From: Neoroseomonas soli
GTDB taxonomy: Bacteria > Pseudomonadota > Alphaproteobacteria > Acetobacterales > Acetobacteraceae
Direction: 5' to 3'
Length of the DNA: 62,593 nucleotides
Assembly (NCBI RefSeq): GCF_018129065.1
Contig: NZ_JAAEDM010000021.1
Span: 1-62,593, forward strand
Part shown: piece by piece, positions 51,773 to 53,219 of the stretch
Layout of the letters: every line of letters begins with the position of its first letter
How positions within the stretch are numbered: position 1 is the stretch's first letter
Translations under genes and position numbers: made by a program
Notes under the pieces: generated by a model
What the model was told of the DNA's origin: nothing
What the model saw: only the letters and a program-made list of their open reading frames with translations
Databases searched by the model: none

Positions 51773-51829
51773 GGAAATTTCCCACCAATCGGATTCAGCT
51801 TGCCGTGGGAAATCGTTTCCCGGCATAAG
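51773..51829 (+). promoter_or_regulatory. carA promoter and paired palindromic candidate operators
   Basis: Two palindromes share GGAAA/TTTCC half-sites: GGAAATTTCC (51773-51782) and GGGAAATCGTTTCCC (51807-51821), centres about 36 bases apart. TTGCCG (51800-51805) and CATAAG (51824-51829), 18 apart, could be -35 and -10 boxes, which puts the second palindrome in the spacer. Transcription would then begin at or next to the ATG at 51837, giving a nearly leaderless message. Confidence 0.5.
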
Positions 51830-51836
51830 GTCGCCC

Positions 51837-53219
51837 ATGCGCACCGTGGAAGATATCATCGCCCTGCTCGGAGGCCCCGAGGCGGCGGCGACCCATTGCG
51901 GCGTCGGCACCGAGGCGATCCGCAAGTGGCGCCAGGCGAAGGCGATCCCGGCCAAGCACTGGCCCGCCGTGCTGTCCGCCACCGGCCTGGCCCTGTCCGA
52001 CCTCCCCGGCGCACCCGCCGAAACCATGAAGACGGAGCCCCCCATGGCTGCCTCTGCCGAGACCCCCCCCGAAGGCGCCACCGGCTGCCTGGTGCTGGCC
52101 GACGGGACCATCTTCTGGGGCCGAGGCTTCGGCGCCGAGGCCGCCATGGTCGGCGAGGTCTGCTTCAACACCGGCATGACGGGGTATCAGGAAACCCTGA
52201 CCGACCCGTCCTATGCCGGGCAGATCATCACCTTCACCTTCCCGCACATCGGGAACGTCGGCACCAACAACGAGGACATGGAGGGCGTCACGCCGGCCAC
52301 GCGCGGCCTGATCGTGAAGCAGGACGTGACCGAGCCGGCCAATTGGCGCGCGACGAAGGACCTGCGGGACTGGCTGGTCTCCCATGGCATCCCGGGCGTG
52401 TCGGGGATCGACACGCGCGCGCTGACGGTGCGGATCCGCGACGTGGGCGCGCCGAACGGCGTGATCTGCCACCGCGCCGACGGCCGCTTCGACATCGCCG
52501 CGCTCAAGGCGCAGGCCGCCGCCTTCCCGGGGCTGGAGGGGATGGACCTCGCGAAGGAGGTCACCTGCCGCCAGACCTACGCCTGGGACGAGACCGAATG
52601 GGTGTGGCCCACGGGCTTCGGCCGGCAGGAAGCGCCGCAGCACAAGGTCGTTGCGGTGGACTACGGCGCGAAGCGCAACATCCTGCGCTGCCTGGCCTCG
52701 GCCGGCTGCGAGGTGGTGGTGGTGCCGGCGACGGCGACGGCCGAGGAGATCCTCGCCCACAAGCCGGACGGGGTGTTCCTGTCCAACGGCCCCGGCGACC
52801 CGGCGGCGACGGGCGAATACGCCGTCCCGGCCATCCAGGGCGTGCTGGAGACGAGGCTGCCGGTGTTCGGCATCTGCCTCGGGCACCAGTTGCTGTCGCT
52901 GGCGCTGGGGGCAAAGACCTACAAGCTCGCGCGCGGGCATCGCGGCGCGAACCAGCCGGTGAAGGACCTCGAGACCGGCAAGGTCGAGATCACCTCCCAG
53001 AACCATGGCTTCGCGGTGGACCCGAAGACGCTGCCGGCGAATGCGAAGGTCACGCATGTCTCCCTGTTCGACGGCACCAACGAGGGCGTGGCGGCGACCG
53101 ACCGCCCGGCCTTCTCCGTGCAGTATCACCCCGAGGCCTCCTCGGGGCCGACGGACAGCCACTACCTCTTCCGCCGTTTCGTGGAGATGATCGAGGCGCA
53201 CAAGGCCGGCCGCGCCTGA
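51837..53219 (+). CDS. carA: Carbamoyl-phosphate synthase small subunit with N-terminal helix-turn-helix
   Basis: Glutamine amidotransferase subunit giving ammonia to CarB for arginine and pyrimidine synthesis. The body is Car[35 protein letters not shown] with nucleophile C347, and the [12 protein letters not shown] histidine/glutamate pair. It is 460 aa, about 65 longer than usual. Residues 1-57 ([20 protein letters not shown], then [19 protein letters not shown]) form a Cro-like helix-turn-helix joined by a short linker. Internal ATGs at 52026 and 52044 would give a standard 391-397 aa CarA, so two products are possible. carB lies 2 kb downstream. Confidence 0.93.

Follow-up and report, generated by a model that had tools for sequence, protein, structure and literature searches.

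The stretch of DNA considered here, referred to as the window, comprises 62,593 nucleotides of Neoroseomonas soli (contig NZ_JAAEDM010000021.1), a member of the Acetobacteraceae, and contains a carA gene (51837..53219, forward strand) whose product carries a Cro-like helix-turn-helix (HTH) domain ahead of the enzyme; carAB stands at the point where the syntheses of arginine and of pyrimidines diverge. The reading frame from ATG 51837, a start predicted to be leaderless, to the stop codon at 53217-53219 specifies 460 amino acids. The NCBIfam model NF046037, the 'carph-isopro domain', matches residues 4-56 (51846..52004, forward strand) with 65.9 bits in the whole protein and 70.5 bits in the N-terminal piece, against a cut-off of 38 bits, and TIGR01368 matches the CarA body at residues 84-453 (52086..53195, forward strand) with 469 bits (cut-off 307). 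With both models over their cut-offs and the amidotransferase motifs intact (GICLGHQ at 345, QYHPE at 429), the view of the initial annotation that an N-terminal Cro-like HTH is in frame with a complete CarA was confirmed. The two parts are joined by a Pro/Ala-rich linker (52005..52082, forward strand), residues 59-72 of which are predicted to be disordered (predicted local distance difference test score, pLDDT, < 50). Helices are predicted in the HTH at residues 4-10, 14-21, 25-34 and 39-49, with Gln33 closing the third, and residues of the domain are invariant across 14 diverse CarA copies. The nearest folds are those of prophage or phage Cro proteins, repressors among them; the Cro proteins of Xfaso1, N15 and P22 appear similar in fold but are stand-alone phage or prophage regulators, whereas the CarA domain is fused to an enzyme. 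The Pfam families P22_Cro (PF14549; 25.8 bits for the N-terminal piece and 21.5 for the whole protein) and YdaS_toxin (PF15943; 24.2 and 19.6 bits) remain below their gathering scores of 30.2 and 30. A search for a donor of the HTH gave no convincing match among phages (four records, best E 0.01) and no match among plasmids. The domain had already been catalogued in NCBIfam, as a domain model only, and an open-access full-text search for 'carph-isopro' returned no paper and no account of operators, promoter or function.

Upstream of the gene lie two copies of a single 15-bp element, GGGAA-N5-TTCCC, with arms in the same register and 38 bp apart. The distal copy, GGGAGGAAATTTCCC (51769..51783), matches at 9 of 10 positions and the proximal copy, GGGAAATCGTTTCCC (51807..51821), at all 10. 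The latter fills the spacer between a candidate -35 element TTGCCG (51800..51805, forward strand), the TTG of which is conserved at this offset in relatives, and a candidate -10 element CATAAG (51824..51829, forward strand), which has TA as its consensus in relatives and was placed by eye in an approximate register; ATG 51837 begins 30 nt after the start of the proximal copy. Two palindromes had been described here before, and both are present as exact sequences, GGAAATTTCC at 51773-51782 and GGAAATCGTTTCC at 51808-51820, but the half-site spacings of 0 and 3 assigned to them were wrong, both being GGGAA-N5-TTCCC. It had also been suggested that ATGs at 52026 and 52044 might start a regulator-free CarA. 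Both are in frame; the ATG at 52044-52046 has GGAG (52034-52037) 6 nt upstream, giving a candidate GGAG-N6-ATG start (52034..52046, forward strand), whereas that at 52026 lacks a Shine-Dalgarno (SD) sequence by the criterion applied, and the suggestion is supported for 52044.

Within the window alone the palindromes are just mildly unusual. With at most one mismatch allowed, GGAAAN3TTTCC was seen twice against 0.47 expected, a count that 9 of 100 shuffles reach, and GGAAATTTCC once against 0.64 expected. The case for the palindromes as operators rests on their conservation.

Conservation and co-loss of HTH and operators

A total of 164 loci were compared, comprising the locus itself, 30 and 114 loci from a 200-genome survey of the family, 18 from the order and one from the class; the 114 were chosen among the further matches listed in the family survey, some of which were not taken. 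HTH and CarA are in one frame in 162 of the 164, the fusion expected of a trigger enzyme of the PutA kind; in locus L188 a frame change separates the two and L215 is a non-CarA protein bearing the domain. When sites were scored as matches of at least 7/8 to GGAA-N5-TTCC within 260 bp upstream, all 162 in-frame loci, the window's own included, had at least one operator and 149 had at least two. These loci span 85 genus codes, 77 of which have a two-site locus. Chance recurrence was ruled out by dinucleotide shuffles of the 158 non-identical loci, which gave at least one site in 14.6% and at least two in 1.3% compared with the 100% and 92.4% observed. A named set of 80 close relatives, with species overlapping those of the 164 loci, had at least one site in 80/80 and at least two in 77/80.

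The carph-isopro domain was found in 189 of 200 genomes of Acetobacteraceae and in 248 of 250 genomes sampled from the order, a sample that is all family-coded alike and overlaps the first. Genome G116 is among the 189 through another small protein, its CarA being without the HTH. The 11 family genomes with no domain match comprise seven with no CarA match, three in which CarA is truncated at the end of a contig and one (G029) with an HTH-less CarA. At the level of the class the domain (E <= 1e-6) occurred in 62 of 289 genomes, 58 of them outside the family, and no HTH-CarA was found in the 61 loci (28 + 33) that cover all 58.

Three relatives have a CarA without the HTH: G203 (genus code g31, other members of which retain the domain) and G029 and G116 (g30). 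No operator site lies within 500 bp of the HTH-less carA of G029 or G116, and near that of G203 there are two weak 7/8 matches 271 bp apart. Other families of the class served as an outgroup, for which 30 genomes were queried and three gave no CarA match; of the remaining 27 carA genes just one shows a lone weak site in the 260 bp upstream and a pair is seen in none, and one further outgroup carA has a weak site at -318. It is apparent from these comparisons that the operator pair is lost together with the HTH. The initial annotation had proposed that its own reading, in which the enzyme uses its N-terminal HTH to repress the gene that encodes it, would fall if other HTH-CarA genes lacked the palindromes. 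The idea of self-repression survives that test because the palindromes track the presence of the HTH across the loci tested, and the reading is partly supported. Conservation and co-loss also point to a cognate operator in the gene's own promoter, as in a PutA-like trigger enzyme.

The promoter geometry was examined in the 111 of 158 loci that have a close proximal site, the alignment covering these with full flanks. TTG precedes the proximal operator by 7 nt, its three bases being conserved at 98/94/95%, and TA stands directly 3' of the operator (T 61%, A 90%); from these flanking positions it follows that the -35/-10 spacer of 17 bp is taken up by the 15-bp operator. An in-frame ATG lies 28-29 nt after the start of the operator, which is the expected transcription start, in 95 of 109 loci, and an SD of at least 4 nt was seen at only 17 of the 109 start ATGs. 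Because the ATG coincides with the expected transcription start and SD sequences are few, a leaderless mRNA, defined as one with a 5' UTR of at most 3 nt, is predicted for carA, as the geometry implies. For Gluconobacter oxydans 621H, sections of PMC5756330 report 62 mRNAs (5%) called leaderless and a -35 element of ttGnnn; the terms carA and carbamoyl are absent from its main text.

A scan of 230 protein columns (the HTH, with part of CarA as background) was made against the outer base of the operator, that is GGGAA..TTCCC or CGGAA..TTCCG. The outer base was best explained by residue 33 (adjusted R2 0.52), the second-best column (0.31) being in the CarA body. Of the 158 loci, 144 have Gln33, for the most part together with G as the outer base, and nine have Ser or Ala, seven of these being purely C-type. 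This suggests that the recognition-helix residue Gln33 tracks the outer base of the operator.

The linker of many relatives also contains a potential second start, an in-frame ATG being present in 117 of 158 loci. In a slightly narrower linker stretch an SD of at least 4 nt was found at 90 of 119 in-frame ATGs and at only 2 of 56 that are out of frame (p 4.5e-21 by a Fisher test that ignores relatedness), and for the control codons GAC, GCC and CCG, whatever their frame, the share was 7-27%. ATG and SD together occur in 89/158 loci, with seven more having GTG or TTG and SD, and the named set of 80 relatives has the internal start signal in 73. The HTH-less CarA of G203 begins at the place matching the internal start. 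An HTH-free CarA is probably also made from this start.

The N. soli genome has two copies of the exact 15-mer, one of them at carA, and in 24 genomes of the same genus it occurs 1-6 times each, in total 81 times versus 83 for the reversed pattern; these counts of exact matches do not support a large regulon. Downstream of carA, and on the same strand, is carB (55259..58504, forward strand), an arrangement found in 18/18 genomes inspected, with carB within ~130 nt of carA in 11 and a short-chain dehydrogenase/reductase (SDR) gene between the two in five of the remaining seven. Since the exact operator is not enriched and carB lies downstream of carA, the operator probably controls carA or carAB. 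In the window SDR and LysE-type genes (53307-54697) separate carA from carB, as they do in some relatives and not in others. That the distal site serves only the divergent yqeY is unlikely, as G062 (L330/L141) keeps both sites and has no yqeY match beside carA.

A predicted autoregulatory circuit and its alternatives

HTH-CarA is very probably an autorepressing trigger enzyme with an operator pair, a predicted leaderless start and a probable second product free of the HTH. Transcription would begin at or next to ATG 51837, so that the first product would be HTH-CarA itself. The HTH, as a dimer, would bind both copies of the 15-bp operator, the one between -35 and -10 and the one 38 bp further upstream, and its binding would exclude RNA polymerase and lower transcription of carA, or of carAB in many relatives. 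That the fusion has been kept almost without exception, even though a stop codon could split the parts, makes it probable that dimerisation, or the sensing of substrate, effector or CarB occupancy, depends on the enzyme body. Translation from the internal SD and ATG would probably supply an HTH-free CarA, one mRNA thus giving a repressor-enzyme and a plain enzyme. Sensing of CarA stoichiometry (free CarA versus CarAB) as the sole logic is not favoured, given that in 11 of the 18 genomes no more than ~130 nt separate carA from the start of carB.

A number of observations must be set against this circuit. Thirteen of the 162 loci have only a single site at 7/8 or better, and operator spacing is not fixed, since 109 of 145 loci have the last two sites 37-40 bp apart and smaller groups have them at 43-44 and 48-50 bp. 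The leaderless geometry fails in 47 of 158 loci, where over 55 nt separate the proximal operator from the HTH codons, and these mRNAs presumably have a leader. By the criterion applied, an internal start with ATG and SD is missing from 69/158 loci, or from 62 once GTG and TTG are allowed, and two CarA products may not be universal. As to residue 33, two of the nine Ser/Ala loci are not purely C-type and one Gln33 locus is at 75%. The paired phylogenetic test of this residue against the operator contained two supported pairs and could not reach significance; on average one pair was concordant and rarely was any discordant. There were too few events for a clean phylogenetic proof of coevolution between residue and operator.

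The alternative taken most seriously, although it is held to be rather unlikely, is that HTH-CarA is the sole form of the enzyme and the internal SD and ATG are a relic of the CarA start before fusion. The 41 of 158 loci without any in-frame linker ATG fit this view, as does L091, the HTH-less CarA of which begins at the corresponding place (MPDIQQPDGATAAL), so that the signal could be ancestral. Against this, the linker varies in sequence and length, yet the SD has been kept at in-frame ATGs and hardly at all at out-of-frame ones, and at least one locus with an SD-preceded internal start, be it ATG, GTG or TTG, is present in 49 of 85 genus codes.

It is improbable that the palindromes serve a separate, stand-alone transcription factor and that the HTH of CarA has some other role. 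DNA binding by the fused HTH is a prediction and several of 15 genomes queried also have stand-alone HTH genes of the carph-isopro family, but a separate factor would not account for the joint absence of operator and HTH in L091-L093 and the 27 outgroup genes, for an outer operator base that follows the recognition-helix residue of CarA's own HTH, or for the lack of genome-wide enrichment of the exact operator. Still less credence is given to activation by the HTH, for example by re-phasing of the promoter. MerR-type activators do have their operator between -35 and -10, as here, but they require a long spacer and the carA spacer is ~17-18 bp; moreover phage Cro and repressors are among the nearest folds. 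The same likeness to prophage or phage Cro proteins might suggest that HTH and operator are a functionless remnant of a mobile element, which is hardly tenable given that the domain is kept in 189/200 family genomes, with invariant residues in 14 diverse CarA copies, and that the operators are kept with it.

Similar fusions to other enzymes

The N. soli genome has a second fusion of this kind, in which a Cro/YdaS-like HTH precedes pyruvate kinase (L004/L105; C4:54822-55178, reverse strand) with CTTACATATCGTAAG and CTTATCTGACGTAAG upstream. HTH and kinase were matched over the whole query in 16 of 100 family genomes. Among 14 HTH-kinase loci with a recognised kinase motif, 13 have CTTA-N7-TAAG (at least 7/8) upstream, two of these being weak 7/8 matches, and five have two sites; L113 and L116, which the kinase motif missed, also show sites of this type. 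None of 14 kinase loci without the HTH has the element, although one control has only 153 nt upstream, and the control is the weaker as HTH-less kinases often follow another gene and may have no promoter there. An in-frame ATG ahead of the kinase is present in 11/14, with an SD of at least 4 nt in seven.

Fusions to other enzymes were found in other alphaproteobacteria, with one to four loci per enzyme. The domain, scoring over the NF046037 cut-off, begins phosphoglycerate dehydrogenase SerA (L381:1489-3156, G399:C26), aspartate carbamoyltransferase PyrB (L389:1483-2655, G450:C2), which is the pyrimidine enzyme after CarAB, NAD(P)HX epimerase/dehydratase (L081:1492-3168, G450:C17) and crotonyl-CoA carboxylase/reductase (L088:1486-2940, G468). 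Database relatives of the SerA fusion numbered four, including the query's own sequence, and those of the PyrB fusion three, including the query's own and a partial. An HTH scoring under the cut-off was found on HisZ-like proteins (L401:301-1638, L402:301-1641 and L417), pyruvate dehydrogenase E1 alpha (L405:379-1620, G527), the arginine enzyme acetylglutamate kinase ArgB (L408:276-1418) and a TorD/NarJ-like chaperone (L427:490-1281, G539); a further ArgB (L406:421-1566) has a sub-threshold YdaS match only, the genomes of L406 and L408 being G455 and G396. L403, L404, L409, L410, L421 and L423 resemble further copies, as judged from the letters only.

On the upstream sequences, the HisZ-like fusions come nearest to the layout of carA. 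A pair of perfect TTCAT-N5-ATGAA sites 39 bp apart precedes each of L401 and L402, at -62/-23 and -60/-21 from the ATG, and L403 has one at -21 (genomes G605, G510 and G386 for L401-L403). TACGT-ATTTT-ACGTA lies 28 nt before the ATG in L081, and L389 has TTGCG-ATTAA-CGCAA with an imperfect second copy, but also seven matches at the looser 4-of-5 level. No perfect 5-N5-5 palindrome was found upstream of L381 (SerA), L088 (crotonyl-CoA reductase), L404 (HisZ-like) or L409 and L410 (ArgB-like), and these five do not fit the operator rule. In all, 11 of 33 non-family loci have such a palindrome within 120 nt, a count that has no shuffle control and includes several AT-rich genomes. The balance of this evidence leans slightly towards a general device, in which Cro-type HTH units, each bringing a promoter and 15-bp palindromic 5-N5-5 operators, would have been captured in frame before metabolic enzymes and would have turned them into self-repressors. 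The enzyme's own start would often have been kept, so that one mRNA would give a leaderless regulator-enzyme and a plain enzyme translated from an SD, and regulation might also act on the relative use of the two starts.

The domain was also seen in other settings. In other alphaproteobacterial families (L062-L080, L082, L083, L085-L087, L089 and L090) it often begins long low-complexity proteins, probably membrane-linked, that start FGGIRPMA; of three such proteins typed, L071 matches Mitofilin. Stand-alone carph-isopro HTH genes of 83-104 aa occur in Acetobacteraceae (L385, L387, L388, L390-L393 and L398), four of the eight being preceded within 110 nt by a perfect 5-N5-5 palindrome, and L377 / P0121 (G038:C18) is a 361-aa protein with the HTH and no further NCBIfam match.

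Comparison with known trigger enzymes

The closest functional parallel to the predicted HTH-CarA circuit is PutA, the DNA-binding domain of which is a ribbon-helix-helix. In sections of PMC8249747 and PMC6978683 PutA (E. coli / Salmonella) is described as a metabolic enzyme that represses its own gene, with a single target in E. coli. PutA is catabolic and responds to proline, whereas HTH-CarA is biosynthetic, has a Cro-like domain, an operator inside the promoter spacer and probably a leaderless start, and may give a domain-free enzyme from its internal start. BirA and NadR, also enzymes with repressor function, are listed in part of PMC8249747 among five E. coli trigger enzymes and have multiple targets there, whereas for HTH-CarA its own gene is the only conserved target found. 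Control of carAB in E. coli, as covered in part of PMC6245113, involves ArgR, PurR, RutR, IHF, PepA and PyrH and acts by repression, partly through trigger enzymes; those regulators are separate proteins, whereas here the DNA-binding domain sits on CarA.

No description of HTH-CarA, of its operators or circuit, or of the HTH-pyruvate kinase was found in searches of open-access full text. What would be new is CarA as the enzyme, the Cro-like domain, and the spacer operator with a leaderless start, together with a likely second product and the reappearance of such domains on other enzymes. The fusions to pyruvate kinase, HisZ-like proteins, ArgB, PyrB and SerA suggest a repeatable route by which an enzyme becomes its own repressor. 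The Acetobacteraceae seem to carry a phage-type repressor on the carAB enzyme itself, and the circuit is predicted at base resolution, down to operator, promoter, start and candidate recognition residue, which makes it directly testable.
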